DNA from: Leucobacter chromiiresistens
GTDB taxonomy: Bacteria; Actinomycetota; Actinomycetes; Actinomycetales; Microbacteriaceae
NCBI RefSeq assembly: GCF_001477055.1
Contig: NZ_LDRK01000010.1
Span: 62,001-126,000 of the forward strand
Length of the DNA: 64,000 nucleotides
Reading direction: 5' to 3'
Of the stretch, positions 29,489-51,257 are shown in pieces (position 1 is the first letter of the stretch; each line of letters opens with the position of its first letter). The translations under genes were made by a program, and so were the position numbers. A model generated the notes under the pieces. The model did not search any database and had not been told where the DNA came from. It saw only the letters and a program-made list of their open reading frames with translations.

Positions 29489-30850
29489 TCAGGGGTGCGG
29501 TGCGCGACTTCCGGCCCGCGACGCCCGCGCGGGCGGCGTCTCGTACTCCTCGTCCTCGAGCCGTGGCGCCACGTAGCGCCCGAACCGTGTGGTCGTCTTC
29601 GCCTTCTCGGATGCTCCGCCTGCACCGCCCCCCATCATGACGCCGCCGGGGCGCAGGCCCCGTCCGGTCGGACCCGCTCCCGACCCGGCGCTCGACGGGC
29701 GCCCGGTCCCATTGCCGGCGGCAGCCGAGGCGGTTCCGCGAGGGCCGCCGCCGGCCGCGCCAGGGGCACCCGTGCCGGCTGCGCCCGCAATCGCGGCGAG
29801 AGCCCCGCCGACACCGCTCCCGCCCCCGATGCCCGCCGCTCGCGCGGCGGCCGCGAGTCCGGCCGCCGTCCGCGCGGTGCTCCCGGGCCCGCCGCGCAGC
29901 GTGGAGCCGTCGAGCGTGCTGTCGACGCTCGGGCCGGAGCCGGGGTGCACCGGCGCGACGCCTGCGGGGCCGGGATCGCCGGGGTGCGCCCGTCCGGGGC
30001 CCTCCCCGGGCCGGCCGTGGCGTGGTGCGGGATCTCCGGGCGAGGTCGCATCCGGATCGGTGATCGTGTGCGGGCTTCTCGGAGCAGGCGTCTCGCCCGG
30101 GTGCCCCGGCACCGGGGCTCCATCGCTCGGCGGAGGAGTCGCCGCCGTCTGATGTGCGGCGGGCTGCGATGCGAGTGCCGGGCCGCCGCCACTCGAGCCG
30201 ATGCCGCCGGCGCCGGCGGGCTGCTCGGCGCCCCCGCTGCCACCGCCGCTGCGCGGACCGCCGTCTTCTGCGCCGCCGCTGCCTCCGCCGTCGCGACTCG
30301 TGCCCGCGGCATCGACCCGGGCGAACCCGGTCTCGATGCAGGCTTGCACAGATCGACTGTGCGCCTCGATCATCAAGATGATCTCGCGCCTGGCTACCTG
30401 AGCAGCCTGCTCGCGCGCGTCCGCGAAGTGCGCGTTGAGCTGCTCCAGCCCCCTCGGACCCGCGGCCACCGCGGAGACGCCGTACGCGGTGAGCACGGCG
30501 TGCCGGCCCTGCGAGAACGCGTCCCAGACGGCCAGCGGAAGATCCCCCGAGGGGAGCGCGTCGAGCAGCTCGTTGGCGCGGTGCGGAATATCGGTGTTCG
30601 CGGTGGTGAGGAGTCGGGATACGGAGTTCACCCACTCGTTCGCGTTCCCATGGCTCTCGAAGGCGGCGTGCAGGTGCGCGGCCGCCGCGCTCGCCGCCGC
30701 ACCCGTCCACGCACCGCTGCGGATCTCGGTCTCCAGTCGCCGGATGCGGGCGCCGATCATCGCCAGCGCGCCGGCCATTGGTCTCAGCGCGGGCAGCGCC
30801 CACCCGCTGCTCGATGCGATCTCCTCGAGTTGCCGTTCGGCTTCGCTCAT
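29489..30850 (-). CDS. PPE/Esp-like putative type VII secretion substrate
   Basis: A 453-residue protein. The first 160 residues are helical with SGAWTGAAASAAAAHLHAAF, a WxG-like turn between helices, as in WXG100/PPE-type proteins. The middle (about 170-390) is low complexity, rich in Gly, Pro, Ser and Ala. The C-terminus has LRPGGVMMGGGAGG followed by RFGRYVAP and EDEEYETPPA, a tail also seen in ESX-linked actinobacterial proteins. No signal peptide is present. It overlaps the mycosin gene by four bases (ATGA), so it is its operon partner. Secretion is inferred from these features. Confidence 0.65.
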   Translation of the reverse strand: MSEAERQLEEIASSSGWALPALRPMAGALAMIGARIRRLETEIRSGAWTGAAASAAAAHLHAAFESHGNANEWVNSVSRLLTTANTDIPHRANELLDALPSGDLPLAVWDAFSQGRHAVLTAYGVSAVAAGPRGLEQLNAHFADAREQAAQVARREIILMIEAHSRSVQACIETGFARVDAAGTSRDGGGSGGAEDGGPRSGGGSGGAEQPAGAGGIGSSGGGPALASQPAAHQTAATPPPSDGAPVPGHPGETPAPRSPHTITDPDATSPGDPAPRHGRPGEGPGRAHPGDPGPAGVAPVHPGSGPSVDSTLDGSTLRGGPGSTARTAAGLAAAARAAGIGGGSGVGGALAAIAGAAGTGAPGAAGGGPRGTASAAAGNGTGRPSSAGSGAGPTGRGLRPGGVMMGGGAGGASEKAKTTTRFGRYVAPRLEDEEYETPPARASRAGSRAPHP

Positions 30851-32400
30851 GACGCCTCACCCCGCTCCTCCGAGCGCCCTCGCGATCGTGCGCGCCGTGC
30901 AGCTGATCTCCAGACGATGACGCCGGCGGCCGCCAGGCCCACGAGCGACACGGCGCCGAGGGCGACCGACGTCCGCAGATGCGACGAAACGGTCGACGGC
31001 TCGCGCCCGGTCTGCGCCTCGGCGCCGGCATCGGTCTGAGGTTTCGAGTACGGGGTCTCGATCGGTTCGTCCAACGTCATGATCGGCTCCCCGTCGACGT
31101 ACACCGCACGGTACTTATCGAGGCCCTCGGGAAACGGGCCGGTCGTCCAGTGGCACCTGGGAAGCCCGTTCGACTCGTCGAAGTGCCCTTCGGTGCCTTC
31201 GGCGTCGACGCATCGCGGATCCTCGAGACTCGTCACCCACTGCGGGTTCTCGTCGGGGAAATTTCGCGGGTCGGCCGCGAGCAGTTCGGGCACGTTCAGG
31301 TATCCGGCTCCGAGACGGTCCTGCGCCCACTCGATGTCGTGCGCTCCGCCGGTACCCGTCGTGCGCAGCACGGCCTGCATCACCTGGAACGGCGTGGCCT
31401 CGGGGTGCTGCTCCAGGGCGAGTGCCACCGCCGCAGCGGTGATGGGCGTCGCGTACGAGGTGCCCGCGATGAGCGTCGGCCCCCACCCGTCGGCGCCGCC
31501 CACGCCGAGCAGCTGGTCGCCGGGCGCTGCGACGGCGATGTTGTTGCTCAGCATGCCCGACGACTTGCCGGTCTCCCGGTCCGTCAGCAGCCGGCCATCG
31601 GGCTCGATCGCGTTCACCGGGAACAGGCCGTTCGTCCCGATCGGACCGGCCGGTAGCATCAGCTCCCGGAGCGGGTTCAGCACGCCGAACACGATGGGCA
31701 CCTCCGCGATCATCGACTCGAACGCGACCTGCTCCCAGTTGGCCGACGATCCGCTGAGCACCGACATCGTTATGACATCGGCGCCGTCGCGGATCGCTGC
31801 GCGGGCGGCGAGCGCCGTCGGGTCGCCCAGTCCTTGTATATTCTCCTCCACCTCGCCGGCGAACCAGGAGAGGTCGCGGGTGAGATCGATGCCGTCGGCC
31901 TCCACGGTCGGATCCTGCAGTGCGCAGTGCTCCGGATCGGCCGCATCGAGGGAGCCGACGCCGTAGAACCAGACCTCGGCATCCGGTGCGACGCCCCGCG
32001 CGCCGGGGCCGCCGTCGCCCGCCTGGCCGGTGCCCACCAGCATCGACACGACGTTCGTGCCGTGGGCTGCGTGCGCGGGGTCGTCGCTCACGATCTGCCT
32101 CGGCGCCCCCGTCTCCGGGTCTGCGCAGGTGGATCCGCGCACCTGCACGTCGGCGCCCTGCAGCTCCGGCACGTCGGGGTTGATGAACGTGTCGATGACC
32201 GCGATCGTCACGCCCTCCCCGGTCGCGCCCTCCGCCTGCACCGCGTCGAGGCCCAGCATGTCGACGTGCCAGAGCCCCTCGGCTCGCTCGTCAGCCCCCA
32301 CCGTTTGCGCTGCCGCGGGCGTCACCGGCGCCAGGACCAGTGCTGCGGCAGCGGTCACGATCACCGTGGCGCTCCATCGACTGCGCGATCTACTCCGCAC
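30847..32400 (-). CDS. mycP: S8 subtilisin-like protease, mycosin type
   Basis: A 517-residue protease with a signal peptide (residues 1-31, Arg/Ser n-region, then ATVIVTAAAALVLAPVTPAAA), a subtilase domain and a C-terminal membrane helix followed by a basic tail. The triad is Asp70 (IAVIDTFIN), His113 (AAHGTNVVS) and Ser315 (AGTSYATP); Asn242 may complete the oxyanion hole. Paired cysteines are typical of the family. Mycosins stabilise and regulate ESX secretion complexes. I chose the GTG at 32400, which gives an ideal signal peptide, has a GGGGGG site six bases ahead and overlaps the upstream gene end; an ATG at 32445 adds 15 residues. Confidence 0.85.
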   Translation of the reverse strand: MRSRSRSRWSATVIVTAAAALVLAPVTPAAAQTVGADERAEGLWHVDMLGLDAVQAEGATGEGVTIAVIDTFINPDVPELQGADVQVRGSTCADPETGAPRQIVSDDPAHAAHGTNVVSMLVGTGQAGDGGPGARGVAPDAEVWFYGVGSLDAADPEHCALQDPTVEADGIDLTRDLSWFAGEVEENIQGLGDPTALAARAAIRDGADVITMSVLSGSSANWEQVAFESMIAEVPIVFGVLNPLRELMLPAGPIGTNGLFPVNAIEPDGRLLTDRETGKSSGMLSNNIAVAAPGDQLLGVGGADGWGPTLIAGTSYATPITAAAVALALEQHPEATPFQVMQAVLRTTGTGGAHDIEWAQDRLGAGYLNVPELLAADPRNFPDENPQWVTSLEDPRCVDAEGTEGHFDESNGLPRCHWTTGPFPEGLDKYRAVYVDGEPIMTLDEPIETPYSKPQTDAGAEAQTGREPSTVSSHLRTSVALGAVSLVGLAAAGVIVWRSAARRARSRGRSEERGEAS

Positions 32401-32785
32401 CGGGCACCCCCCGGCTCTGGCGCGCGGCCGCTGGCCCTGCGCCATCTGCGCCACCGGTGACGCCCGCGTCATCGACGCCCACCTCGAAGCGCGCCAGTGC
32501 CGCGCGCAGCTCGTCGGCGATCGACGCCTCCGTCTCCTGCTGATCGGCGACCGCGGCGGCGACGGTGCGCTCCAGAGCCTGCAGGTCGCGATCCAAGTCC
32601 ATGATGACGCTATGCATGCGGCCGGCGCCGGCTGCCAAGTCGTTGGCGATGTGCTTCCCCAGTCCATTGCCGGGGCCGGTCACGGCCTGCATCTCGTCGA
32701 CGCGGGGGTACTGCGTCTCCGTGTTCCGAATGAGTGCCAGCTGATCTGCGAAGCCGCTCTCCATACTGATGCGCTGTTCGCCCAT
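32390..32785 (-). CDS. small helical protein, WXG/EspC-like, first gene of type VII-like operon
   Basis: A 131-residue protein predicted to be almost all helix from residue 8 to 98, with heptad-like spacing (DLDRDLQALERTVAAAVADQQETEASIADEL) and no signal peptide or membrane segment. The canonical WxG turn is not seen; GNGLGKHIANDLAAG may be the inter-helix region. Its size, helicity and position ahead of the mycosin suggest a secreted WXG100/EspC-like partner. The C-terminal 30 residues are Gly/Ala-rich. Function is inferred from context only. Confidence 0.6.
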   Translation of the reverse strand: MGEQRISMESGFADQLALIRNTETQYPRVDEMQAVTGPGNGLGKHIANDLAAGAGRMHSVIMDLDRDLQALERTVAAAVADQQETEASIADELRAALARFEVGVDDAGVTGGADGAGPAAARQSRGVPGAE

Positions 32786-33733: not shown

Positions 33734-34753
33734 GTGACCGCACCCACCGCACCCATCAGCACCCAGATCCAGCTCGTCTCGCGGCCGAGCGGCTGGCCCA
33801 CCCACGACGACTTCCGCACCGTGCAGGTCGAGCTCGCCGACCTGCAGCCGGGGGAGGTGCGCGTGCGCAACGAGTTCGTCTCGGTCGACCCCTACATGCG
33901 GGGGCGCATGAACGACGCCCGCAGCTACGTCGCGCCCTACGCGCTCGGCGAGCAGATTCAGGGCGGGGCCATCGGCCGCGTCATCGCCTCCGCCTCCGAC
34001 GACGTTCCCGAGGGCGCGGTCGTGCTCCACCAGCACGGGTGGTCGGACCTCGTGCAGGCCGACGCCGGCACCTTCCGCGTCGTTCCCGAGATCCCCGGCG
34101 CGCCGCTCTCGCTGCGCCTCCACATCATGGGCATGACCGGGCTGACCGCCTACGTCGGCCTCACCGCCATCGCGAAGATGCGGGAGGGGGACACCGTCTT
34201 CATCTCCGGCGCCGCCGGAGCGGTCGGCACCGCAGCCGGGCAGATCGCGAAGCTCCTCGGAGCGGGCCGGGTGGTCGGCTCCGCGGGATCCGCCGAGAAG
34301 GTCGCGCTGCTCACCGAGAAGTACGGCTACGACGCGGCGTTCAACTACAAGGACGGCGACGTGCGCGCCCAGCTCGCCGAGGCGGCCCCCGGCGGTATCG
34401 ACGTCTTCTTCGACAACGTCGGCGGCGATCACCTCGAAGCCGCACTCGACGCCTTCAACGACGACGGTCGCGCGGCGCTCTGCGGCGCCATCTCCCAGTA
34501 CAACACGTCCGAGGCCGCCCCCGGGCCCGACAACATGGCGAACATCATCACCCGGGCCCTCACGCTCGAGGGCTTCACCGTCGGCAAGCACCTGCAGCAC
34601 GCGCCCGAGTTCCAGGAGCGCATGGCGCAGTGGTTCGCCGCGGGAGACATCGCCTACGACGAGACCATCGTCGACGGCATCGAGCACACGGTCGACGCGT
34701 TCCTCGACATGATGCGCGGGGCCAACACCGGCAAGATGCTCGTGCGGGTGTAG
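33734..34753 (+). CDS. NADPH-dependent medium-chain oxidoreductase, CurA/leukotriene B4 dehydrogenase-like
   Basis: A 339-residue zinc-independent medium-chain reductase. VDPYMRGRMND near residue 55, GMTGLTAYVGL, the nucleotide site VFISGAAGAVGTAAGQIAKLLG and FDNVGGDHLEAAL are all hallmarks of the 15-oxoprostaglandin 13-reductase / CurA group, which reduces alpha,beta-unsaturated carbonyls with NADPH. Structural and catalytic zinc cysteines are absent. The GTG at 33734 has GGAGG five bases upstream. Control by the divergent TetR repressor suggests induction by reactive electrophiles. Confidence 0.92.
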   Translation: MTAPTAPISTQIQLVSRPSGWPTHDDFRTVQVELADLQPGEVRVRNEFVSVDPYMRGRMNDARSYVAPYALGEQIQGGAIGRVIASASDDVPEGAVVLHQHGWSDLVQADAGTFRVVPEIPGAPLSLRLHIMGMTGLTAYVGLTAIAKMREGDTVFISGAAGAVGTAAGQIAKLLGAGRVVGSAGSAEKVALLTEKYGYDAAFNYKDGDVRAQLAEAAPGGIDVFFDNVGGDHLEAALDAFNDDGRAALCGAISQYNTSEAAPGPDNMANIITRALTLEGFTVGKHLQHAPEFQERMAQWFAAGDIAYDETIVDGIEHTVDAFLDMMRGANTGKMLVRV

Positions 34754-34796
34754 CCCGCCGGTGTGCGGACGGCGCTCGTCCCCGGCCGCGCACGAC

Positions 34797-34834
34797 GCAG
34801 CGCCCGCGCTCTCTCCCGAGACCGCGGGCGCTGC
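34797..34834. terminator. hairpin terminator after oxidoreductase
   Basis: A perfect 12-bp stem GCAGCGCCCGCG / CGCGGGCGCTGC with a 14-base loop. Confidence 0.7.
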
Positions 34835-34846
34835 CCATCGGTACAG

Positions 34847-34886
34847 CAATGTGCCCGCCTCTCCTGTGCGAGCGACGGGCACATTG
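34847..34886. terminator. hairpin terminator of fasciclin gene
   Basis: A perfect 11-bp stem CAATGTGCCCG / CGGGCACATTG between convergent genes. Confidence 0.7.
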
Positions 34887-34950
34887 GTCTTGCAGGCGAT
34901 CGGACCGCGTCGACGCGGACTCCGATGCCGGGTCTTGCAGGCCGGCGAGA

Positions 34951-35628
34951 TTACTCGGCCGGCGGCATCAGCACGCTGTCGACCAGGTACACGGTCGCGT
35001 TGGCAGTCTGCACGCCGCCGCAGATCACGTTCGCGTCGTTGACCATCAGCTCGTCGCCCGAACCGGTCACCTCGAGATCGGCACCCTGCACGGTGGTGTG
35101 CATGCCCTCGATGTCGGCCGGCTCGATCTGGCCGGGGACCACGTGGTAGGTCAGGATGCTGGTGAGCAGGTCGCTGTCGGTCTTCAGCGTGTCGATGGTG
35201 CCCGCGTCGATCTTGGCGAACGCGTCATCGACCGGCGCGAAGACGGTGAACTCGTCACCGTTCAGCGTGTCGACGAGATCCACATCGGGGTTCAGCTGGC
35301 CGCTGACCGCCGAGACGAGCGTCTTCAGCATCGGGTTGTTCGATGCGGCCACCGCGACCGGATCCTGCGACATGCCCTGGATCGATCCGTCGCCGTCCGG
35401 CACCGCCTCGGCGTAGGCCGCGCAACCGGGGCCTACGAGGTTCGCGGCCGGATCCATCGCGTCCGACGACTCCGTCGGCTCCTCCATCGGCGTCGACTCC
35501 TCGGTCTGCTCCGTCGTCTGATCCTCGGCCGCCTCGTCCGATGCCCCCATCGAGCAGCCGGTGAGCATTGCGGCGCCGACCAGCGTCATTGCGAACGCGG
35601 CGCCGAGGGTCTTCTTCTTGGTGAACAT
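34951..35628 (-). CDS. fasciclin-domain lipoprotein, MPT70/MPT83-like
   Basis: A 225-residue exported lipoprotein. The signal peptide ends in the lipobox LTGC (Cys25); a Glu/Thr/Pro-rich linker precedes one FAS1 domain (about residues 80-225) with [14 protein letters not shown] and [15 protein letters not shown], the H1 and H2 blocks of the fold. MPT70 and MPT83 of Mycobacterium tuberculosis share this build and are controlled by SigK. Here it is divergent from dipZ, and the ECF sigma factor and anti-sigma factor follow. GAGGAGG lies five bases before the ATG. A promoter CCATCC-N16-CGAAGA lies about 47 bases upstream of the start. Confidence 0.92.
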
Positions 35629-35674
35629 GGTTCCTCCTCAGATGAGATCCGCAGTTTTCCGCGGCTTGTGAACG

Positions 35675-35702
35675 TCTTCGGAGCCCTCCTGGGGTCGGAT
35701 GG
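35675..35702 (-). promoter_or_regulatory. ECF (SigK-like) promoter of fasciclin gene
   Basis: On the minus strand: CCATCC (35702-35697), 16 bases, CGAAGA (35680-35675). The spacer begins with GACC and ends with CTC. It is nearly identical in layout to the dipZ promoter. The predicted transcript begins near 35668. Confidence 0.75.
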
Positions 35703-35975
35703 AAAATTCTTCGAAAAGTTTTCGATGCGGCTCCCGCGTGCGGGCTCGGCCGTCTGGCTGCCGGGTGCCCCGCGGGCGCCGGCTGACGGAGAGGCGACAG
35801 AATCTCTGCTGAATCCGGCCCCGCGAATGGACCTTCTGTCGCATCTCTCACTGGAGGCGCGAGCGCGCGCACGCGGGCGCGCGCGAGCCCGCGACCCGCG
35901 CACCTGCGCACGACGCATGCCGGGCGAGGATCCTCCGCGGTCCCGAAGTGCCGCGAGTGCATCGGGTCGCACGAC

Positions 35976-36003
35976 CCATCCGAACGGCCGTCCGCTCCGA
36001 AGC
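35976..36003 (+). promoter_or_regulatory. ECF (SigK-like) promoter of dipZ
   Basis: CCATCC (35976-35981), 16 bases, CGAAGC (35998-36003), then a leader of about 16 bases to the dipZ ATG. The spacer also starts with G and ends with CTC. Confidence 0.75.
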
Positions 36004-36026
36004 ACCTCTCAACAGGAAGGCTTCTC

Positions 36027-37754
36027 ATGGATATCGTGCTTATCGGTCTGCTCGGCGGGCTCATCACCGGCATATCGCCGTGCATTCTGCCGGTGCTCCC
36101 GGTCATCTTCCTGACGGCGGGGGCCCGGCCCGCGGCGCCCGGCAAGGCGCCCGAGGTCATCGCGGCGAAGCGCAGCCGCCCGTTCTGGATCATCGCGGGG
36201 CTCGTGATCAGCTTCTCCGTGGTGACGCTCCTCGGGTCGCTGCTCCTCGGCCTGCTGAACATTCCGCAGAGCGCGATCCGCTGGGCGGGCGTCGCCGTGC
36301 TGCTCATCATCGGCGTCGGCATGCTCTTCCCCGGTTTCGAGCAGCTGCTCGAGAAGCCGTTCCAGCGTCTGCCGCGGCGCAAGGTCGGCGAGGGCGGCAA
36401 CGGCTTCGGCATGGGCCTCGCCCTCGGAACGGTCTTCGTGCCCTGCGCGGGCCCCGTGCTCGCCGCGATCATCGTGGCAGGCGCGACGGGTCAGATCGGG
36501 ATCGAGACGGTGCTGCTCACGGTCTCCTTCGCGGTCGGCGTCGCGATCCCGCTGCTCGTGTTCGCCCTCGCCGGGAGCAAGGTCGCGCAGCGCATCCGCG
36601 GCTTCCGCAAGCGGGAGCGCGTGCTGCGCATCGTGGGCGGCGTCGCGCTGATCGCGCTCGCCGTCGGCCTCGCGTTCAACGTGCCCCAGGCGCTTCAGCG
36701 CCTGCTGCCCGACTACACCTCGGGCATCCAGAAGGATCTCGCCGAGAGCGAGGCCGGGCAGAGCGCGCTGAACCTCGGCGGGCTCGTCACCGACGAGAAC
36801 CGCGATCTCGACAAGTGCGCGAACGACGCGGAGGAGCTCGCGTCGTGCGGCAAGGCGCCCTCCATCAAGGGCATCGAGGCGTGGCTGAACACGCCGGGCG
36901 GCGAGGCGCTCGACCTCGACGATCTCAAGGGGCAGGTCGTGCTCATCGACTTCTGGGCCTACTCCTGCATCAACTGCCAGCGCTCCATCCCGCACGTGGT
37001 CGCGTGGGATGAGGCCTACGGCGACCAGGGCCTCCAGGTGATCGGCGTCCACTCGCCCGAGTACGCGTTCGAGAAGGAGCGGGCGAACGTCGAGGCCGGC
37101 ATCGCGGACTTCGGCATCGAGTACCCGGTCGCCATGGACAACAACCTCTCGACGTGGACGAACTACCGCAACCGGTACTGGCCCGCGCACTACCTCATCG
37201 ACGCTGAGGGCACGGTGCGTCACATCTCCTTCGGCGAGGGCAACTACGAGACCACGGAGAAGCTCATGCGCGAACTGCTCGAGGAGGCGAACCCCGACGA
37301 GCAGCTCCCCGAGGAGACGGACGTCTCCGACGCCACGCCCGAGGTCGGGAGCACCACGCCCGAGACCTTCCTCGGCTCCTCGAAGGATCGCAACTTCGCC
37401 GGCCCCGGCGAGTACCGCGCAGGCGAGGGCGAGTACGAGTTCCCGGAGCAGCAGCAGCAGGACACGTTCGCGCTCGACGGCGCATGGACTGTCGAGACGC
37501 AGTACGTGACGCCGACGGCCGGAGCGGGCGACGGTTCGAAGATCCGCCTCGACTACCGCGGGCAGGAGGTGCGCACCGTCGTCGCCGGCAGCGGCACCAT
37601 CGAAGTCGCTGTGGAGGGCGGCGGCACCCGCACCATCGAGATCGACGGGACGCCGCGCTCGTACCGGGTGGTCGAAGCGGACGATCCCGCCGAGGGCGTG
37701 CTCGAGATGACCGTGCCGGAGGGCGTGCAGGTCTACTCGTTCACGTTCGGGTAG
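36027..37754 (+). CDS. dipZ: DipZ: CcdA-like membrane domain fused to thioredoxin-like domain
   Basis: A 575-residue thiol-disulphide transporter. The first 225 residues form a CcdA domain with about six membrane helices; its redox cysteines are Cys19 (SPCILP) and Cys140 (VPCAGPV). An extracellular TlpA-like thioredoxin domain follows (about 285-420) with the active site Cys314-Ile-Asn-Cys317. The C-terminal 120 residues form a beta-rich domain, as in mycobacterial DipZ. It carries electrons across the membrane to reduce exported proteins. An AGGAAGG site precedes the ATG. It shares its promoter type with the fasciclin gene and lies 110 bases ahead of the sigma factor, so read-through may give autoregulation. 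Confidence 0.93.
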   Translation: MDIVLIGLLGGLITGISPCILPVLPVIFLTAGARPAAPGKAPEVIAAKRSRPFWIIAGLVISFSVVTLLGSLLLGLLNIPQSAIRWAGVAVLLIIGVGMLFPGFEQLLEKPFQRLPRRKVGEGGNGFGMGLALGTVFVPCAGPVLAAIIVAGATGQIGIETVLLTVSFAVGVAIPLLVFALAGSKVAQRIRGFRKRERVLRIVGGVALIALAVGLAFNVPQALQRLLPDYTSGIQKDLAESEAGQSALNLGGLVTDENRDLDKCANDAEELASCGKAPSIKGIEAWLNTPGGEALDLDDLKGQVVLIDFWAYSCINCQRSIPHVVAWDEAYGDQGLQVIGVHSPEYAFEKERANVEAGIADFGIEYPVAMDNNLSTWTNYRNRYWPAHYLIDAEGTVRHISFGEGNYETTEKLMRELLEEANPDEQLPEETDVSDATPEVGSTTPETFLGSSKDRNFAGPGEYRAGEGEYEFPEQQQQDTFALDGAWTVETQYVTPTAGAGDGSKIRLDYRGQEVRTVVAGSGTIEVAVEGGGTRTIEIDGTPRSYRVVEADDPAEGVLEMTVPEGVQVYSFTFG

Positions 37755-37788
37755 AGCGGATCCGGGTGCGGAGGAGCGTTCGATGTAC

Positions 37789-37842
37789 GCGACGAGACCA
37801 CTCGCAGGGATGCGACGAAGCGACTCGCAGGATGCGACGAAG
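37789..37842. repeat. GCGACGA repeats ahead of the sigma factor gene
   Basis: A 20-21 base direct repeat (ACTCGCAGG(G)ATGCGACGAAG) at 37800 and 37823, with a third GCGACGA at 37789. The core heptamer recurs at 37789, 37812 and 37834, steps of 23 and 22 bases. This could be an operator or a recent duplication. Confidence 0.6.
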
Positions 37843-37864
37843 GCGGAGTGGAGGTGAATGAGGC

Positions 37865-38464
37865 ATGCTAAGTGTGATGGTCATTGACGGGGTGGAGATA
37901 CCGGAGGACGGCGCGAGCGTCGATCCGGCGGACAGGGCGCTCGCACGCGCCGCGGTGGGAGACCAGCGCGCCTTCGCAGAGCTGTACGATCTGCTCTCGG
38001 CTCGCGTGTTCGGCCTGATCCTCAGGGTGCTGGTCGATCGGTCGCAGAGCGAGGAGGTGCTGCAGGAGGTCTTCCTCGAAGCGTGGCAGACCGCCGACTC
38101 GTTCGACCCGGATCGCGGCCGGGCCCGCACATGGCTCCTCACGATCGCCCACCGCCGAGCCGTCGACCGGGTGCGCGCCTCGCAGGCGTCGCGCCGCCGG
38201 GACCTCGCCGTCGGCACCCGCGACCTCGTCGCTCCGCAGCCGGGGGTCGACGACGAGGTGGAGCTGATGATCGACGGCACCCGCGCCGTGCGGGGCCTCG
38301 GCGAACTGCCCGAGCCGCAGCGGCGCGCGATCGTGCTCGCCTATTTCGGCGGGTACAGCCAGAGCGAGATCGCAGTGCTCCTCGGAGCCCCGCTCGGCAC
38401 CATCAAATCGAGAATTCGAGACGGCTTGACCCGTCTCAGGAAAGAAATGGAGGCGACGCGATGA
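37865..38464 (+). CDS. sigK: ECF sigma factor, SigK-like
   Basis: A 199-residue ECF sigma factor. Region 2 is at about residues 32-105 (FAELYDLLSARVFGLILRVL, VLQEVFLEAW, WLLTIAHRRAVDRVR) and region 4 at about 135-190 (LPEPQRRAIVLAYFGGYSQSEIA, LGTIKSRIRDGLTRLR). There is no extra C-terminal domain. The next gene overlaps by four bases and encodes an RskA-type anti-sigma factor, and the neighbours dipZ and a fasciclin lipoprotein are the classic SigK targets. I therefore call it SigK, although ECF families are hard to separate by eye. The ATG at 37865 has a weak ribosome site; a GTG and ATG just downstream are alternatives. Confidence 0.88.
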   Translation: MLSVMVIDGVEIPEDGASVDPADRALARAAVGDQRAFAELYDLLSARVFGLILRVLVDRSQSEEVLQEVFLEAWQTADSFDPDRGRARTWLLTIAHRRAVDRVRASQASRRRDLAVGTRDLVAPQPGVDDEVELMIDGTRAVRGLGELPEPQRRAIVLAYFGGYSQSEIAVLLGAPLGTIKSRIRDGLTRLRKEMEATR

Positions 38465-39375
38465 ACGAGCAACAGTTCCGCGAGCTCTCCGCGGCCCGCG
38501 CCCTGCACGCGCTCTCCCCGGAGGAGGAGCAGGCGTTCTCGGAAGCGCTGACGGCTCACCCCGAGTGGCTCTCGGTCGTCGATGAGGATCGCGAGACCGT
38601 CGCAGCACTGGCGACGTCGATCGGCGAGGTCGCGCCGCCCCGCGCGGCGCGCGCCGCGATCCTCGACCTGATCTCGCGCTCGCCGCAGTTCGAGGCGGAC
38701 GCGGGCGGCGCGGCGCGCCCCGGCGGGCCGGTCTCCGGCTCGGCCGCGAGCGGCGCCTCCGATGCGGCTGCCGGATCCGGTGCCGCGGATGCCGCGGATG
38801 GCGCGGATGCTGCGGACGGCGCCGGCGGCGCTGCGGGGGATTCGCGCCCCGCCCGGCCGTCAGACCTGGTGCCCGAGCTGATCGAGGAGCCCGAGGATCC
38901 CGAGCTCGCGTTCACGCGGGCTCGCCGCAAGAAGGCCTGGTTCGGGCTGGCCGCGTCGGTCGCGGTGCTGCTCGCGATCGCGCTGGCGCTGCCGCTGCAG
39001 GGCGGCATGGGGCCGCAGGATCCGGTGTCGGTCGCGATGCAGCAGGTCGAGGCCGCTCCCGACGCGCAGTCGGCGACGGTGAGCGTCGGGTCGGCGGAGG
39101 CCACGCTCCACTGGTCGGACTCGACGCGGCAGGCCGTGTTCATGACCGAGGGCATGGATCCGGCGCCCGAGAACCACGATTACGAGCTGTGGATCGTGCG
39201 CGGCGACGAGCCCATCTCGCTCGGCGTGATGCACGCCGACGCGAACGGCGGCGCCGCGGTGCTCGCCGAGGGCTTCACGCCCGGCGATGCGCTCGCCGTG
39301 ACGGTCGAGGATCGCGGCGGGTCGCCCACGGGCGCCCCGACCACCGACCCGATCGTCGTCGTCGCCTCCGCGTAG
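38461..39375 (+). CDS. rskA: anti-sigma-K factor RskA
   Basis: A 304-residue membrane anti-sigma factor. The cytoplasmic N-terminus (residues 1-80) has the RskA start ALHALSPEEEQAFSEALTAHPEW; unlike ZAS proteins it has no HxxxCxxC zinc motif. A long Ala/Gly/Asp-rich insert (about 85-125) is unusual. One membrane helix lies at about 162-180, and the outer domain is the RskA C-terminal fold (HDYELWIVRGDEPISLGVM). It should hold the sigma factor inactive until cut by membrane proteases; the rhomboid and site-2 type proteases are candidates only by analogy. The ATG overlaps the sigma stop (ATGA). Confidence 0.93.
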   Translation: MNEQQFRELSAARALHALSPEEEQAFSEALTAHPEWLSVVDEDRETVAALATSIGEVAPPRAARAAILDLISRSPQFEADAGGAARPGGPVSGSAASGASDAAAGSGAADAADGADAADGAGGAAGDSRPARPSDLVPELIEEPEDPELAFTRARRKKAWFGLAASVAVLLAIALALPLQGGMGPQDPVSVAMQQVEAAPDAQSATVSVGSAEATLHWSDSTRQAVFMTEGMDPAPENHDYELWIVRGDEPISLGVMHADANGGAAVLAEGFTPGDALAVTVEDRGGSPTGAPTTDPIVVVASA

Positions 39376-39394
39376 CACTCGGAGAGCACCCGTC

Positions 39395-39448
39395 GAGAGC
39401 GCGTTTCGGGCTCCCGCTTCGCACGAGTGGAGCCAGAAACGCGCTCTC
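39395..39448 (+). terminator. long hairpin after rskA
   Basis: GAGAGCGCGTTTC / GAAACGCGCTCTC pair around an inner GGCTCC / GGAGCC stem. Confidence 0.8.
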
Positions 39449-39454
39449 GGCGCA

Positions 39455-39490
39455 GAAGGCCCCGGGATCCCGCGGGATCCCGGGGCCTTC
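39455..39490. terminator. 36-bp perfect palindrome, bidirectional terminator
   Basis: Two 18-base halves (GAAGGCCCCGGGATCCCG and its complement) with no loop bases. It lies between convergent genes and directly follows the previous hairpin. Confidence 0.8.
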
Positions 39491-39497
39491 GCGCTCG

Positions 39498-40544
39498 TCA
39501 GAGGGCGTGCGCCGTATCCTCCACCTCGCCCACGAGCTCCTCGACGATGTCCTCCAGGAACAGCACGCCCGTGAACCCGCCGTCCGCCGAGCGCACGCGG
39601 GCGATGTGCGCACCGCGTTCGCGCAGCAGCTCGAGCGCCTCCTCGACCTCGGCGTCCGAGGTCACGGTCGGGAGTTCGCGCGCACGATCCGCGGGAATGG
39701 GCGCGTCGATCTCGCTCGGCGTCGAGAGCTCGAGGATGTCCTTGAGGTGCAGGTAGCGCTCCGGAGTGCCGTCGGCCGAGTGGAGCACGTAGCGGGAGTA
39801 GCCGTGCTCCGACACCGCCTGCTGCACCTGGCGCGGGGTGGCGTCGAGCGGCAGCCGCACGAGGGAGTCGAGCGGCACCTCCACATCGGAGACGTGCTTC
39901 TCCGTGAACTCGAAGGCGGCCGAGATCGTGCCGCTCGTGTCCTCGAGCGTTCCCTCGCGCGTCGACTGCTCCACGATGCTCGCGACCTGGTCGATGGTGA
40001 ACGCCGTGTTCGCCTCGTCCCTCGGCTGCACGCCGCAGAGGCGCAGGAAGCCGTTGGCCACCCAGTTGAGCGAGCGGATCAGGGGCCCCACGACCTTCGA
40101 CACGAAGACGAGGGGCGGCGCGAGCAGGAGTGCTGCGCGATCCGGCACCGAGAACGCGAGGTTCTTCGGCACCATCTCGCCGAACACGACGTGCAGGAAC
40201 GTGACCAGCACGAGGGCGACGATGAACGCCGTGACGGAGACCGCTTCGGCGGTGAGTCCCGTCCAGGCGAGCAGCGGGATCTCGAGGAGATGGTGGATCG
40301 CGGGTTCGGAGACGTTCAGGATGACGAGCGAGCAGACGGTGATGCCGAGCTGACTCGTCGCCAGCATGAGCGTCGCGTGCTCCATCGCCCAGAGCGTGGT
40401 CTTGGCGGCCTTGCTGCCGGCCGCTGCACGGGGCTCGATCTGCGAGCGGCGCGCCGAGATGACGGCGAACTCGGCGCCCACGAAGAAGGCGTTCACCACC
40501 AGCAGCACGACGAGCCAGATGAGGCCGGGAAGGTACTCGTTCAT
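39498..40544 (-). CDS. CNNM/CorC-HlyC family membrane protein (second of pair)
   Basis: A 348-residue protein with an N-terminal DUF21 domain of about four helices (LIWLVVLLVVNAFFVGAEFAVISARRSQIE), then two CBS motifs (about 200-340) ending in GVLFLEDIVEELVGEVEDTAH. It lacks the C-terminal CorC/HlyC domain, being shorter than its upstream paralogue. The family handles Mg2+ or Co2+ export and resistance. The ATG overlaps the preceding gene by four bases, so both probably work together, perhaps as a heterodimer. Confidence 0.9.
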   Translation of the reverse strand: MNEYLPGLIWLVVLLVVNAFFVGAEFAVISARRSQIEPRAAAGSKAAKTTLWAMEHATLMLATSQLGITVCSLVILNVSEPAIHHLLEIPLLAWTGLTAEAVSVTAFIVALVLVTFLHVVFGEMVPKNLAFSVPDRAALLLAPPLVFVSKVVGPLIRSLNWVANGFLRLCGVQPRDEANTAFTIDQVASIVEQSTREGTLEDTSGTISAAFEFTEKHVSDVEVPLDSLVRLPLDATPRQVQQAVSEHGYSRYVLHSADGTPERYLHLKDILELSTPSEIDAPIPADRARELPTVTSDAEVEEALELLRERGAHIARVRSADGGFTGVLFLEDIVEELVGEVEDTAHAL

Positions 40545-42910: not shown

Positions 42911-43603
42911 TCACGGATCGAGGCGGTAGGTCTCGTTCAGGTGATGCCGCAGCAGCGACTCGAAGCGGGCGAGCGCTCGTTCGGCGCGAGCGGCCTCGCC
43001 GGTTTCGGGCGGCGCTTGCCCGGGCGCTCCCGCTTCGTGCAGCGCATCGAGCATCGCCGCATGCTCGGTGAGGATCTCGTCGCTGCGATCGAACAATCGC
43101 CGCCCGTAGCTGAACAGCAGGAAGCGCTGGCGATCCGCCAGTCGGTCGTAGAGCTCGGTGAGCACCGCATTGCGCGCCGCGGTGACGAACGAGCGGTGGA
43201 ACTCGATGCTGAGCTCGACGAACGCGGGGAGGTCGCGCGCCTCGAGGCGCTCGCGCTGAGCTTCGAGCTGCGGGCGGAGTGCGTCGGCCGTGCGGCGACG
43301 CGAAGTGGGCGGGGCCGAGCGCACGGCGCCCGATTCGAGGAGCACCTTCGATCCGGCCAGGTCGGCGACCGCCTGAGCGCTCACTTCGCGTACCAGTGCG
43401 CCGCGCTTGGGGAAGATGGTCAGCCAGCCCTCGTCCTGCAGGCGGATCAGCGCGGCCCGCACGGGGGTGCGGCTCATGCCGATGGAGGAGGCGACGGCCG
43501 ACTCGCTGAGCATGCTGCTGCCCGGATGCACGCCGGAGAGGATGCCGTCCAGGATGGCGCGGTACGCGCGGGAGGCGGCGGACTCGTCGGCGGCAGCGTG
43601 CAT
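42911..43603 (-). CDS. GntR family regulator, FCD (FadR) subfamily
   Basis: A 230-residue GntR protein. The winged HTH is at about residues 8-75 (AYRAILDGILSGVHPGSSML, SMSRTPVR-type helix in SIGMSRTPVRAALIRLQDEG); the C-terminal FCD ligand domain contains ELSIEFHRSF and LLRHHLNETY with His residues for a metal. I placed the start at 43603, where GGAGAA stands about eight bases before the ATG; the open frame runs further through a 10-bp repeat array. A palindrome at 43682-43700 lies on the promoter of the divergent dsbA-like gene and is the probable operator. Confidence 0.88.
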   Translation of the reverse strand: MHAAADESAASRAYRAILDGILSGVHPGSSMLSESAVASSIGMSRTPVRAALIRLQDEGWLTIFPKRGALVREVSAQAVADLAGSKVLLESGAVRSAPPTSRRRTADALRPQLEAQRERLEARDLPAFVELSIEFHRSFVTAARNAVLTELYDRLADRQRFLLFSYGRRLFDRSDEILTEHAAMLDALHEAGAPGQAPPETGEAARAERALARFESLLRHHLNETYRLDP

Positions 43604-43620
43604 GGGACCATTCTCCCGTG

Positions 43621-43680
43621 TCGGGCCGGATCGGGCCGGATCGGGCCGGATGGGGCCGGATGGGGCCGGATCGGGCCGGC
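43621..43680. repeat. 10-bp tandem repeat, six copies
   Basis: Six uninterrupted units TCGGGCCGGA (third base pair varies: copies 4 and 5 are TGGGGCCGGA; the last ends in C). The array lies in the predicted 5' leader of the GntR gene. GGGCCGG/CCGGCCC is partly self-complementary, so the leader RNA could fold. Confidence 0.9.
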
Positions 43681-43681
43681 A

Positions 43682-43700
43682 AGGATACATCTTGTATCCT
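43682..43700. promoter_or_regulatory. GntR operator overlapping divergent -10 boxes
   Basis: A perfect palindrome AGGATACA-TCT-TGTATCCT. Its right half supplies TATCCT (43695-43700), six bases before the GTG of the dsbA-like gene; its left half supplies the same box on the minus strand. Binding would block both promoters. Confidence 0.8.
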
Positions 43701-43706
43701 AGATTC

Positions 43707-44480
43707 GTGTCGCAGCGATCAATCCCCTCTCGAACGTCTCAGCGTCGACTGAAGTCCTGGCTCTTCCTCGCGGCCGCGGTGATCGTGTTCCTCGGCGTCG
43801 TGATCTTCGCGCAGGCGTCAATGAACTCGGGCAACGGCTCGTTCGGCTCGGCAGCGAAGCAGGGCGAGGCGGCTGCAGACGGCAGCGGCGCCGACACCGG
43901 CGACTCCGCGGCGCGGACCGGCTTCGAGACGCGCGATCCCGCCGACCCCATGGCGATCGGAGACGCCGACGCGCCGGTCGTGCTCGTGGAGTGGACCGAT
44001 ATGCGCTGCCCCTACTGCGCGGTCTTCAACCAGGAGACCCTGCCGACCATCGTGGACGAGTACGTCGAGGCGGGGACGGTGCGCATCGAGGTGCGCGACG
44101 TCGCGTTCTTCGGCGAAGCCTCGGAGACGGCCTCCGTCGCCGCCCGGGCCGCCGGCGAGCAGGGCAGGTTCATGGAGTACCTGGATGCCGTCTACGCAGC
44201 GGCGCCCGCAGAGGGGCACCCCGATCTCCCCGTGGATCAGCTGATCGGATTCGCCGAGGAGGTCGGCGTGCCCGACATCGCGAAGTTCACGGCGGATCTC
44301 GAAGACCCGGCACTGCGCGCCGCCGTGCAGCAGAGCACCGCGACCGCGCAGCAGCTGGGCGTCACCGGCGTTCCGTTCTTCGCGGTCGGCACCGACGCGC
44401 TCTCCGGCGCGCAGCCGATCGACGCGTTCCGCAGCTTCCTCGACGCCGCGATCGAAGCGGCGCCGGACTCGGCCGGCTGA
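43707..44480 (+). CDS. membrane-anchored DsbA-family thiol oxidoreductase
   Basis: A 257-residue protein with a basic N-terminus, one membrane helix (about residues 17-36), a Gly/Ser/Ala linker, and a DsbA-like thioredoxin domain with active site Cys101-Pro-Tyr-Cys104 and the cis-proline segment GVTGVPFF. It would form or shuffle disulphides outside the membrane. The GTG at 43707 lies six bases after TATCCT and has no ribosome site, so translation is probably leaderless. It is followed after three bases by a CcdA gene and is divergent from the GntR repressor. Confidence 0.88.
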   Translation: MSQRSIPSRTSQRRLKSWLFLAAAVIVFLGVVIFAQASMNSGNGSFGSAAKQGEAAADGSGADTGDSAARTGFETRDPADPMAIGDADAPVVLVEWTDMRCPYCAVFNQETLPTIVDEYVEAGTVRIEVRDVAFFGEASETASVAARAAGEQGRFMEYLDAVYAAAPAEGHPDLPVDQLIGFAEEVGVPDIAKFTADLEDPALRAAVQQSTATAQQLGVTGVPFFAVGTDALSGAQPIDAFRSFLDAAIEAAPDSAG

Positions 44481-49031: not shown

Positions 49032-51257
49032 TCAGCGCGCGGAGCGACGCGCCGCGCGCCCGCCGAGCACGAGCGCGCCGGTCAGCAGGAGCGCGGTGGC
49101 GACGCCCGCCCATGGCCCGACGGGGGCGCCCGTCGCGGCGAGCTCGGCCGAGCTCGCCGATGCGGGAGCGGGCGCCGCGGCGGAAGCGGGAGCCGAGTCG
49201 CCGCTCCCGGCGGTGCCGTGCGCACCGGTGGCAGCGTCGGAGCCATCCGCGCCCGAGCCGGCAGCTCCCGAACCGGCAGCTCCCGAACCGTCGGCCGCAC
49301 CATCGGCGCCGCCCACTGCCGTACCATCGGCTGCTCCGTCGGTGCCGTCGGCAGCCCCGTCGGCAGCTCCGTCAACACCACCGTCGGCAGCGCCGCCGTC
49401 AGCCCCGCCATCGGCGGCCTCCCCGGCGTCGGCCGGGACCGTCGCCGTCACCGAGAACGGCAGGGGCACCTTCTCGGCGTCCATGGCCGCCCCGGTCGTC
49501 AACCACCACGGGCGCAGCTGCGGATCGAGCCACTGCACGAAGTCGGCGGGGTAGGAGTCGGGGTACGTGCGCCCGTCCAGTTCGAGGGCGCGCCCGGCGA
49601 ACTCGGGCGTCGCGGTCATGGTGAGCCGGTCCCCGTCGCGCGAGACCTCGGCGTTCGAGAACGTCGCGAGGGTCACGCGCCGGTAGCCGTCGCTCGCGAG
49701 CGAGCCGGTGACGCGCCATGCGACGTCGAACGACAGCGATCCGGTGCCGTCGGCGGCGATCTGCAGGCGCGGGTTGCCGAGGATCGTGCTGACCTCGGGT
49801 GCGAGGCCCGGGTAGTGCTGCACGAAGATGCCGTCGCGCCACACGAGGTCCGCGGCCCCCGTCGCCGGGTCGACCCATCCGGCGCCGTCGGCGAAGGCGA
49901 ACTCCGCGTTCTCGCGGGTGGTCGCGCCGAGCGGGCGCGGCGACCACGCCAGCATGTAGTCGTTGACCGCCCAGGCGAGCCCGCCGTCGTCGACCGATGT
50001 CGCCCCGGCGGGCGCGTCGCCCGGCTCGGGTGCGGCCGGGCCCTCCCAGGGGCTGTTCTCCGCCGGCGGCTCGGGCTCCGCCTCCTGCCCGGGCGTGACG
50101 GCGCGCCGCGTCGGCTCCACGATGTCGCCCGACCGCACGAGCTCGCTCAGCCGGTCGGTGTAGGGGTGGGTGACGAAGATGCGCGATCCTCCGGCCCCGA
50201 CGCCGAGCCCCCAGGTGTCGGCATTGCCCGACCCGGTGCCGCCGGTGACGCCCGCCGCGGTGAAGTCGACGGCCTGCTGCGCCGTCCAGGTGTCGGGGCT
50301 GATGACGGAGACCGCGTTCGAGAAGCCGTCGGTGGTGAAGACCTCGTGCGTGGTCGGGTCGACCTCCATCTCGTAGACGTTCTCGCCGACCTCGATCGGC
50401 GATCCGACGAAACGGCCGTCGGCGACGCGCAGGCTCACGACCTTGGAGCGGTCCCACGAGTCGGTCAGCGTGGGCGACACCGCGATGTGCAGCTCGCCGA
50501 GCTCCTCGTCCATCGCGAGGGCCGCCGCGCGGCCGCCCACCGGCGCCCCGTCGACGACGAGGGCGGAGACGGGGAACGCCAGGGAGTCGACCCAGGTGCT
50601 CGTGATGGTGCTGTACCCGGTGATCACCTTCGCGCGGCCCTCGGCGATCCAGATCATGTGATTCGTCGCGTCGTAGACCGCGTCCTTGATGAGCGGGTAG
50701 CGCTCCGTGCTGATCGCGACCGGCGCGGAGACCTCGCCCGTGGCGGGGTTCACGCGCGTGAGCGCGCTCGAATCGTAGACGTACAGCAGACCCGTGTCGC
50801 GATCCTCGACCATGCCGCTCGGGAGCGCGGGCACGCCGGCGATCTCGCGCACGTCGTGCCCGGCGGAGTCGAGGTCGACGACGCTGATCGTTCCGGTGCG
50901 GGAATGGGAGACGTAGAGGCTGCGGCCGTCGGCGCTCAGCACGATGTCGGAGGGTGCGGCCTTCGGCAGGTCGATGACCTCCGCCGAGGGTGCGCCCGTC
51001 TGCATGTCGAACCAGGCGATCTGCCCGCGGGGGGTGCCGTCCGCGCTGCTGTCGACGGTGACGTAGACGCGCTGCCGGGCGTCGTCGACGACGGCGGTGC
51101 GGCTGACTTCGCCGACGCCGTGCGTGCCGGCGAGGGTGAACTGCGATGCTGCCGCGCGGGCGGGCTGCGGCATGAGCATGAGGGCGAGCCCGCCGAGCAG
51201 GAGCGCGGTGAGCGCGACGGCGAGGGCTCGGAGTGGGATGGGGGCGTGGGTTCGCAT
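49032..51257 (-). CDS. sortase-anchored surface protein with beta-propeller and HtaA-like haem-binding domain
   Basis: A 741-residue exported protein. It has a signal peptide (about 1-36), a YncE-like beta-propeller (about 37-390), an HtaA-like domain (about 455-640; LAWAVNDYMLAW, WRDGIFVQHYPGLAPEVSTILGNP) and an Ala/Gly/Asp repeat stalk. The sorting signal LAATG (706-710) is followed by a membrane helix and RAARR. HtaA domains bind haem in corynebacterial iron uptake. The match is by eye. The LAATG motif fits the class E sortase at 4346. The ATG at 51257 was chosen for its signal peptide. A palindrome AAGGGTACCCTT lies about 55 bases upstream. Confidence 0.75.
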   Translation of the reverse strand: MRTHAPIPLRALAVALTALLLGGLALMLMPQPARAAASQFTLAGTHGVGEVSRTAVVDDARQRVYVTVDSSADGTPRGQIAWFDMQTGAPSAEVIDLPKAAPSDIVLSADGRSLYVSHSRTGTISVVDLDSAGHDVREIAGVPALPSGMVEDRDTGLLYVYDSSALTRVNPATGEVSAPVAISTERYPLIKDAVYDATNHMIWIAEGRAKVITGYSTITSTWVDSLAFPVSALVVDGAPVGGRAAALAMDEELGELHIAVSPTLTDSWDRSKVVSLRVADGRFVGSPIEVGENVYEMEVDPTTHEVFTTDGFSNAVSVISPDTWTAQQAVDFTAAGVTGGTGSGNADTWGLGVGAGGSRIFVTHPYTDRLSELVRSGDIVEPTRRAVTPGQEAEPEPPAENSPWEGPAAPEPGDAPAGATSVDDGGLAWAVNDYMLAWSPRPLGATTRENAEFAFADGAGWVDPATGAADLVWRDGIFVQHYPGLAPEVSTILGNPRLQIAADGTGSLSFDVAWRVTGSLASDGYRRVTLATFSNAEVSRDGDRLTMTATPEFAGRALELDGRTYPDSYPADFVQWLDPQLRPWWLTTGAAMDAEKVPLPFSVTATVPADAGEAADGGADGGAADGGVDGAADGAADGTDGAADGTAVGGADGAADGSGAAGSGAAGSGADGSDAATGAHGTAGSGDSAPASAAAPAPASASSAELAATGAPVGPWAGVATALLLTGALVLGGRAARRSAR

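Follow-up and report, generated by a model that had tools for sequence, protein, structure and literature searches.

A predicted single-locus SigK–RskA regulon with a fasciclin lipoprotein and DipZ in Leucobacter chromiiresistens

In Mycobacterium tuberculosis and Mycobacterium bovis, the genes of the SigK regulon are at two loci, mpt83-dipZ-mpt70 and sigK-rskA, and include two fasciclin genes (PMC10540498). Can the whole circuit be held at one locus? The question is raised by a stretch of 64,000 nucleotides from Leucobacter chromiiresistens (contig NZ_LDRK01000010.1, positions 62,001 to 126,000; hereafter the window), in which a first-pass annotation had placed a fasciclin lipoprotein gene, dipZ, and the genes for an extracytoplasmic function (ECF) sigma factor and an RskA-like anti-sigma factor side by side. 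MPB70/MPB83 and SigK-RskA have been studied in bovine tuberculosis, with the signal for SigK and the role of DipZ unclear (PMC9861118, PMC10540498), and a compact locus lets the whole SigK circuit be studied outside pathogens. All four genes are present in the window, each matched to its family, and on the basis of sequence it is likely, with good confidence, that they form a self-contained SigK-RskA regulon at one locus.

The four genes and their predicted promoters

The mpt83-type fasciclin (FAS1) lipoprotein gene (34951..35628, minus strand, 225 aa; Pfam Fasciclin) and dipZ (36027..37754, plus strand, 575 aa; Pfam DsbD_TM, AhpC-TSA, and Thioredoxin_10) are divergent, on opposite strands, with 398 bases between them. 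Behind dipZ, after a spacer of 110 bases (37755..37864), are sigK, encoding the ECF sigma factor (37865..38464, plus strand, 199 aa; Pfam Sigma70_r2/r4_2; NCBIfam SigK), and rskA, encoding the membrane anti-sigma factor (38461..39375, plus strand, 304 aa; Pfam RskA_C), which overlap by ATGA. The locus shares with the M. tuberculosis and M. bovis regulon all four protein types and SigK-dependent, here predicted, fasciclin and dipZ promoters (PMC10540498, PMC9861118); it differs in being a single locus with a single fasciclin gene, the only Pfam fasciclin match in the whole genome.

Both target genes are preceded, at promoter distance, by a predicted SigK-type promoter, CCATCC-N15-CCGAA. The site of the fasciclin gene (35677..35702, minus strand) is followed by the start codon 48 bases on, and the site of dipZ (35976..36001, plus strand), which by read-through would serve sigK-rskA too, by the dipZ start codon 25 bases on. 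There are exactly two copies of this sequence in the window and the same two are the only ones in the 2.79 Mb assembly, which is 93.7 % complete; they were returned together as an inverted repeat in a repeat search. The proposal that the regulator adjoins its likely targets is therefore supported by promoter-like sites tying SigK to both the fasciclin gene and dipZ. The description of the regulon as complete may not hold, since with up to one mismatch the genome has 62 sites (2 exact and 60 with one mismatch), versus 13 for the reversed pattern, which was judged to be a poor control because the genome is GC-rich. Three of these 60, those nearest to the consensus, were examined in context. Two point antisense into a gene, by eye, and the third, a weak site of the CCAACC type, is inside the end of a gene resembling those for nonribosomal peptide synthetases, approximately 70 bases before an MbtH-like gene.

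Based on its sequence, the sigma factor belongs to the SigK group, in the neighbourhood of ECF18 and ECF19. It narrowly passes the NCBIfam SigK model NF007228 (228.4 bits, with a cut-off of 226), more than 100 bits over the next family (121.9). Of six relatives scanned with the same model, five score 258–286 bits and one, L234, scores 179, below the cut-off. In the sigma factor tree, which has an arbitrary root and 26 of 63 inner branches unresolved, the sigma factor falls within a clade of six Leucobacter sequences (100/94) among SigK factors that include M. tuberculosis SigK (4nqw sequence), while the two other alignable ECF factors of the same genome fall far outside the cassette-linked sigma factors. 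Placement in an ECF group other than SigK, which had been named as the finding that would speak against the proposal, was looked for, and both the model and the tree point to SigK. M. tuberculosis SigK has itself been assigned differently by two papers, to ECF18 (PMC7509140) and to partner group AS19-1 of ECF19 (PMC7406223).

In sequence searches against the PDB, the best solved structures are M. tuberculosis SigK for the sigma factor (4nqw, E 2e-40), the DipZ ectodomain for DipZ (2hyx, E 1.4e-108), and MPT70 for the fasciclin protein (1nyo, E 5.2e-66); no PDB relative was found for RskA by this search. Identity to the corresponding M. tuberculosis stretches is 68 % for the fasciclin protein (MPT70 stretch), 65 % for DipZ (184 ectodomain residues compared), and 47 % for SigK. 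The fasciclin protein has an LTGC lipobox whose cysteine is Cys25 (by eye), as well as mature cysteines Cys69 and Cys203; with its FAS1 domain, two mature cysteines, and predicted MPT83-type lipid anchor, its sequence places it in the MPT70/MPT83 group. DipZ is a full-length fusion of a CcdA-like membrane domain (Cys19, Cys140), a thioredoxin-like domain (CINC, Cys314/317), and a C-terminal domain. By sequence, the anti-sigma gene is an rskA, being a neighbour of sigK whose product has predicted N-terminal sigma-binding helices, one membrane span (by eye), and an outer RskA_C domain (PF10099, 80.3 bits; NF052375, 136.4 bits, with a cut-off of 100). It has no cysteine, and its N-terminus resembles, by eye, the AS19-1 motif quoted in PMC7406223. 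A long linker rich in Ala, Gly, and Asp precedes the membrane span (38660-38880, by eye).

In the proposed mechanism, RskA, anchored in the membrane, would hold SigK by its N-terminal part until a signal at the cell surface, as in the M. tuberculosis system, frees or activates it. RNA polymerase with SigK would then start at the two back-to-back promoters in the divergent region, one leading to the MPT83-like fasciclin lipoprotein and the other to dipZ and on into sigK-rskA. Electrons carried through the membrane by DipZ would reach its thioredoxin-like domain, and DipZ would probably form or correct the disulfide of the fasciclin protein, judging from its family and from a role in fasciclin disulfide formation suggested for mycobacteria (PMC9861118). 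This suggested role fits the two mature cysteines of the fasciclin protein.

The signal is unlikely to be read by SigK through a cysteine pair. M. tuberculosis SigK has Cys133 and Cys183, whereas the sigK product of the window has zero cysteines and therefore neither of the pair (the numbers 133/183 are derived from chain length). Both switch cysteines together are in no Microbacteriaceae sequence of the compared set; they are present in SigK of L221-L223, of Lentzea, and of several other members of the class. The pair is not defining, with a reported conservation of 94 % for ECF18 and 56 % for ECF19, and SigK proteins without these cysteines are known, of which the cysteine-free SigK of Nocardia is highly active without RskA (PMC7509140). 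Unlike in the Nocardia strains with cysteine-free SigK described there, RskA is full length in the Leucobacter locus. Without the two redox-switch cysteines in SigK, sensing is therefore probably via RskA or its proteolysis. M. tuberculosis RskA is proteolysed by RIP1 (PMC7509140), and the Leucobacter genome has one member of the site-2-protease family.

Promoter sites and gene order in relatives

Relatives were compared in three sets. The named loci are the best 80 of 554 dipZ relatives and are biased to near relatives, the nearest being those of Leucobacter (Leucobacter sp. L43, 91 % for DipZ). The family sample consists of 199 genomes and the class sample of 394, from which 31 dipZ stretches and 40 fasciclin stretches, hand-picked to spread over genera, were fetched. 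A strict pattern was used first, C[AC]ATCC-N15/16-CCGAA, and many dipZ promoters of Microbacterium escaped it; 23 Microbacterium dipZ loci were read, in which the conserved core is CGAA, and the pattern was therefore relaxed to C[AC]ATCC-N16/17-CGAA, up to 200 bases upstream. This looser motif precedes fasciclin genes in 73/79, dipZ in 77/80, sigK in 1/63, and rskA in 3/66 cases among the named loci. The corresponding counts are 37/58, 16/33, 21/60, and 0/61 in the family sample and 28/57, 10/31, 6/27, and 0/28 in the class sample. The reversed motif, used as a control, was found 0 times in each sample, and shuffles averaged no more than 0.3 (0.3 for fasciclin and 0.2 for dipZ in the 80 named loci). 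In the window, there are three copies of the looser motif, the third at 49875.

When 14 divergent regions of the Leucobacter type, 159 to 398 bases long, are aligned, what stands out by eye as conserved is the pair of sites, the ribosome-binding regions, and a stem in the leader of the fasciclin gene. The divergent region of the window, at 398 bases, is longer than those of the 13 aligned relatives (159-288). It contains an inverted repeat with arms GCGACAGAA and TTCTGTCGC at 35771-35865, where all 13 aligned relatives are gapped.

In M. tuberculosis, mpt83, dipZ, and mpt70 each have a SigK-dependent promoter (PMC9861118), and strong conservation of SigK sites across Actinobacteria has been reported, as has recognition of the mpt70 site by SigK of different species (PMC7509140). 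The motif is present upstream of the mpt83-, dipZ-, and mpt70-like genes of L218, a locus of mycobacterial type whose DipZ stretch shares 87 % identity with the M. tuberculosis one.

The first-pass annotation had seen in the gene order an ancient module outside mycobacteria and had proposed a search of relatives for it. The order recurs, with the fasciclin gene divergent from dipZ, sigK, and rskA, in 59 of the 80 named loci by tblastn and in 57 by a stricter hidden Markov model string, which finds it in 13/13 of Leucobacter and 42/47 of Microbacterium. Of the 21 others by tblastn, 16 have the divergent fasciclin gene and dipZ but show no sigK in the stretch (some of these contigs end early), and 5 have other forms. 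Leucobacter, Microbacterium, and Demequina are mostly environmental genera. Full-length dipZ in named genomes of these three touches on the statement, made with reference to Veyrier 2008, that full-length dipZ in Actinobacteria is exclusive to pathogens (PMC3078919).

In the family sample, dipZ is present in 37 genomes (E 1e-60), fasciclin in 62 (1e-20), and sigK-like genes in 130 (1e-20). In the 58 genomes with a fasciclin gene of at least 52 % identity, both dipZ and sigK are within 8 kb in 28, sigK only in 12, dipZ only in 5, and neither in 13; for this count sigK was taken from among the matches listed, minus eight rows at 36-41 % identity, and four weaker fasciclin rows were dropped. Among the family matches listed, 102 of 142 SigK-like genes have no fasciclin neighbour. 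Twenty such genes far from any fasciclin gene (L112-L131) were examined, and in 12 sigK itself is preceded by a SigK-type site.

Within the genus, represented by 54 genomes, 27 have a fasciclin gene, and precisely these have sigK with an identity of no less than 65 %; two others are limited to weaker sigma matches (53 % and 33 %). Of the 27, 24 have an intact dipZ, one has a split copy, and two have none. The split dipZ, that of G594, is in two overlapping frames (L291, 2330-3996), either from a frameshift or from a sequencing error. In another Leucobacter (L290, 2800-8660), approximately 6 kb separates the fasciclin gene from dipZ, including one ion-exchanger-like gene and one large rhamnosidase-like gene (by eye); L141, apparently the same contig, retains both promoters.

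In the class sample, dipZ is present in 36 genomes (1e-60) and fasciclin in 122 (1e-40). A common form here is a codirectional fasciclin-sigK-rskA, and in L225 dipZ, fasciclin, sigK, and rskA are all in one direction. Adjacency of fasciclin-sigK-rskA or of dipZ-sigK-rskA occurs in other families of the class, which, with the same order across Leucobacter and Microbacterium, speaks for an old module outside mycobacteria.

Read-through from dipZ and alternative explanations

It had further been suggested that the sigma factor may be autoregulated through read-through from dipZ. The layout and the relatives support this, indirectly. A SigK-type site of its own for sigK was looked for in the window and not found. 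Nor was a terminator found between dipZ and sigK in a T-run hairpin scan of 34700-39600, or a sigma-70-like promoter in the same interval in a simple consensus scan. Since neither a terminator-like structure nor a further SigK site was found between these genes, the dipZ transcript would run into sigK-rskA and, from the layout and the relatives, the sigma factor and its brake would both be amplified. A SigK-type site within 250 bases upstream of sigK is present in only 1 of 90 tight cases, where sigK shares the strand of dipZ or fasciclin and starts no more than 150 bases behind it, versus 31 of 60 others, and in 79 of the 90 tight cases the leading gene carries an upstream site. Most of dipZ has been lost from the Leucobacter genomes G014 and G628, and CAATCC-N15-CCGAA is kept at its former place. 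L055 has a short frame from the first and last dipZ codons and L289 a more decayed dipZ remnant; in each, the retained dipZ-type site is the only one in the stretch that points at sigK. These two loci share flanking sequence and may reflect one common loss of dipZ. In M. tuberculosis, sigK is autoregulated via Rv0449cp (PMC7509140).

Several points weigh against the proposed regulon and its read-through. The looser motif was defined only after the sequences of relatives had been inspected, and the controls were run afterwards. A share of the leading genes in the wider samples has no site (it is present at 37/58 fasciclin and 16/33 dipZ genes in the family and at 28/57 and 10/31 in the class). 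Among mycobacterial-type loci, the motif is absent from L244 and L248, occurs at dipZ only in L216, and at dipZ and one of two fasciclin genes in L220; L221-L223, with dipZ and sigK-rskA, have no SigK-type motif. DipZ is not indispensable for the fasciclin gene, because two of the 27 genus genomes keep fasciclin without dipZ. For the comparison of tight cases with others, the raw Fisher p of 2e-14 takes no account of relatedness, some genomes are counted twice because the named and sampled sets overlap (L141/L290, L069/L205), and short gaps leave little room for a sigK promoter, all of which confounds 1/90 versus 31/60. Tree-based independent pairs, drawn from 62 rows (0/29 tight, 17/33 loose), gave the same direction in all 200 pairings, with too few pairs and a median p of 0.5. 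The terminator scan detects T-run hairpins only, with shuffles averaging 1.2, and the promoter scan covers the sigma-70 consensus only; there may be a constitutive promoter in dipZ or in the spacer.

Such a promoter is the basis of the alternative that survives best, in which SigK drives fasciclin and dipZ while transcription of sigK-rskA starts at a separate, constitutive promoter that does not depend on SigK, with no autoregulation through dipZ. In its favour, the putative promoter sigKp just before sigK in M. tuberculosis is reported not to be SigK-regulated (PMC7509140), and the spacer of 110 bases leaves room for one, being longer than in most named relatives, where 54 of 60 dipZ-sigK gaps are 60 bases or fewer. 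A short direct duplication at 37789-37842 within the spacer may account for its greater length. However, those short gaps give little room for such a promoter in most relatives, the simple consensus scans found neither a sigma-70-like nor a terminator-like site, a SigK-type site is retained ahead of sigK where dipZ has decayed, and sigK genes not closely behind a target often have a SigK-type site of their own. A separate promoter for sigK-rskA is considered unlikely.

It is less likely again that the genes were gathered recently in Leucobacter, as a chance or transferred cluster. Half of the genus genomes (27/54) are without all of it, which is consistent with loss or transfer. However, the same order in the Leucobacter and Microbacterium named loci, the related adjacencies in other families of the class, and the clade formed by the six genus sequences in the sigma tree argue for an older module. 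That the sites are those of another regulator or ECF factor, the adjoining sigma factor being a mere neighbour, is very improbable: SigK-like genes without a fasciclin neighbour are indeed common and 29/57 class-sample fasciclin genes are without the strict motif, but fasciclin and sigK are jointly present or absent in 54/54 genus genomes, the same motif precedes sigK itself at 12 of the 20 examined loci away from fasciclin genes, and it recurs at mycobacterial-type mpt83/dipZ/mpt70 loci, whose genes are reported to be SigK-dependent (PMC9861118).

Known cassettes, the fasciclin leader, and neighbouring genes

An mpt83-sigK-rskA cassette outside M. tuberculosis, conserved even in Yersinia, has been described by Veyrier et al. 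in 2020 and attributed to Veyrier, Said-Salim and Behr (Veyrier 2008) (PMC7509140). In it, as in Leucobacter, a fasciclin lipoprotein gene adjoins sigK-rskA and has a SigK site upstream; the Leucobacter locus differs in having dipZ between, a divergent fasciclin gene, and sigK behind dipZ. In the PiCp2 island of Corynebacterium pseudotuberculosis, cskE, sigK, and dipZ are listed together, so that sigma factor, anti-sigma factor, and dipZ are adjacent as in Leucobacter, while the covered part of the table shows no fasciclin gene (PMC3078919). In L234, taken as corynebacterium-like, sigK points away from dipZ, unlike in Leucobacter. In genus g102, dipZ is ahead of sigK-rskA in L221-L223, directly in two (71 and 60 bases) and with a larger gap in L222; their SigK is 76-78 % identical to that of M. 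tuberculosis and there is no fasciclin gene in the stretch, whereas other g102 genomes carry the mpt83-dipZ-mpt70 layout. The parts and the mpt83-sigK-rskA core are thus already known, as is sigK-dipZ adjacency in Corynebacterium, and adjacency as such is not new. No description of the dipZ-led divergent four-gene form and its spread in Microbacteriaceae, of a sigK without its own promoter behind a target, or of a promoter that outlives dipZ turned up in the literature searched, which did not cover Veyrier 2008.

A wider proposal is put forward tentatively, and is somewhat more doubtful than probable when all its parts are taken jointly. In Microbacteriaceae, the dipZ promoter would be the autoregulatory promoter of sigK; a sigK that follows closely would give up its own site, and the promoter would outlive dipZ. 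The target-led operon would be the working unit of SigK, the split layout of M. tuberculosis being derived. Cysteine-free SigK would need a different way of sensing from the redox switch, and the lifetime or translation of the fasciclin mRNA would be set by a conserved 5′ stem-loop.

This stem-loop, CCGCGGAAAACTGCGG (35649..35664, minus strand), is early in the predicted mRNA leader of the fasciclin gene and is conserved among the leaders of relatives, with paired changes. Among 127 unique fasciclin leaders, 68 have a stem whose start lies 10 to 13 bases beyond CGAA. In a different set, of 68 aligned leaders, 90.6 % of stem pair cells are standard and 15 cells are changed on both sides, compared with 3.8 in shuffles (0/500 shuffles as high); five pairs are changed on both sides (21/500 shuffles as high). 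The paired-change signal is much lower once the partner is slid. RNAalifold supports three pairs only, and there is no Rfam match in 34900-39500. A role for the stem-loop as an mRNA stabiliser is possible.

Two genes outside the locus are also noted. A DsbA-like thioredoxin-fold protein is encoded a few kb from dipZ (43407-44480, plus strand), and may be a further thiol partner. On the other side, at 30847-32667 (minus strand), is a gene whose product belongs to the subtilase family, has a hydrophobic segment at its C-terminus, and by eye resembles a mycosin.

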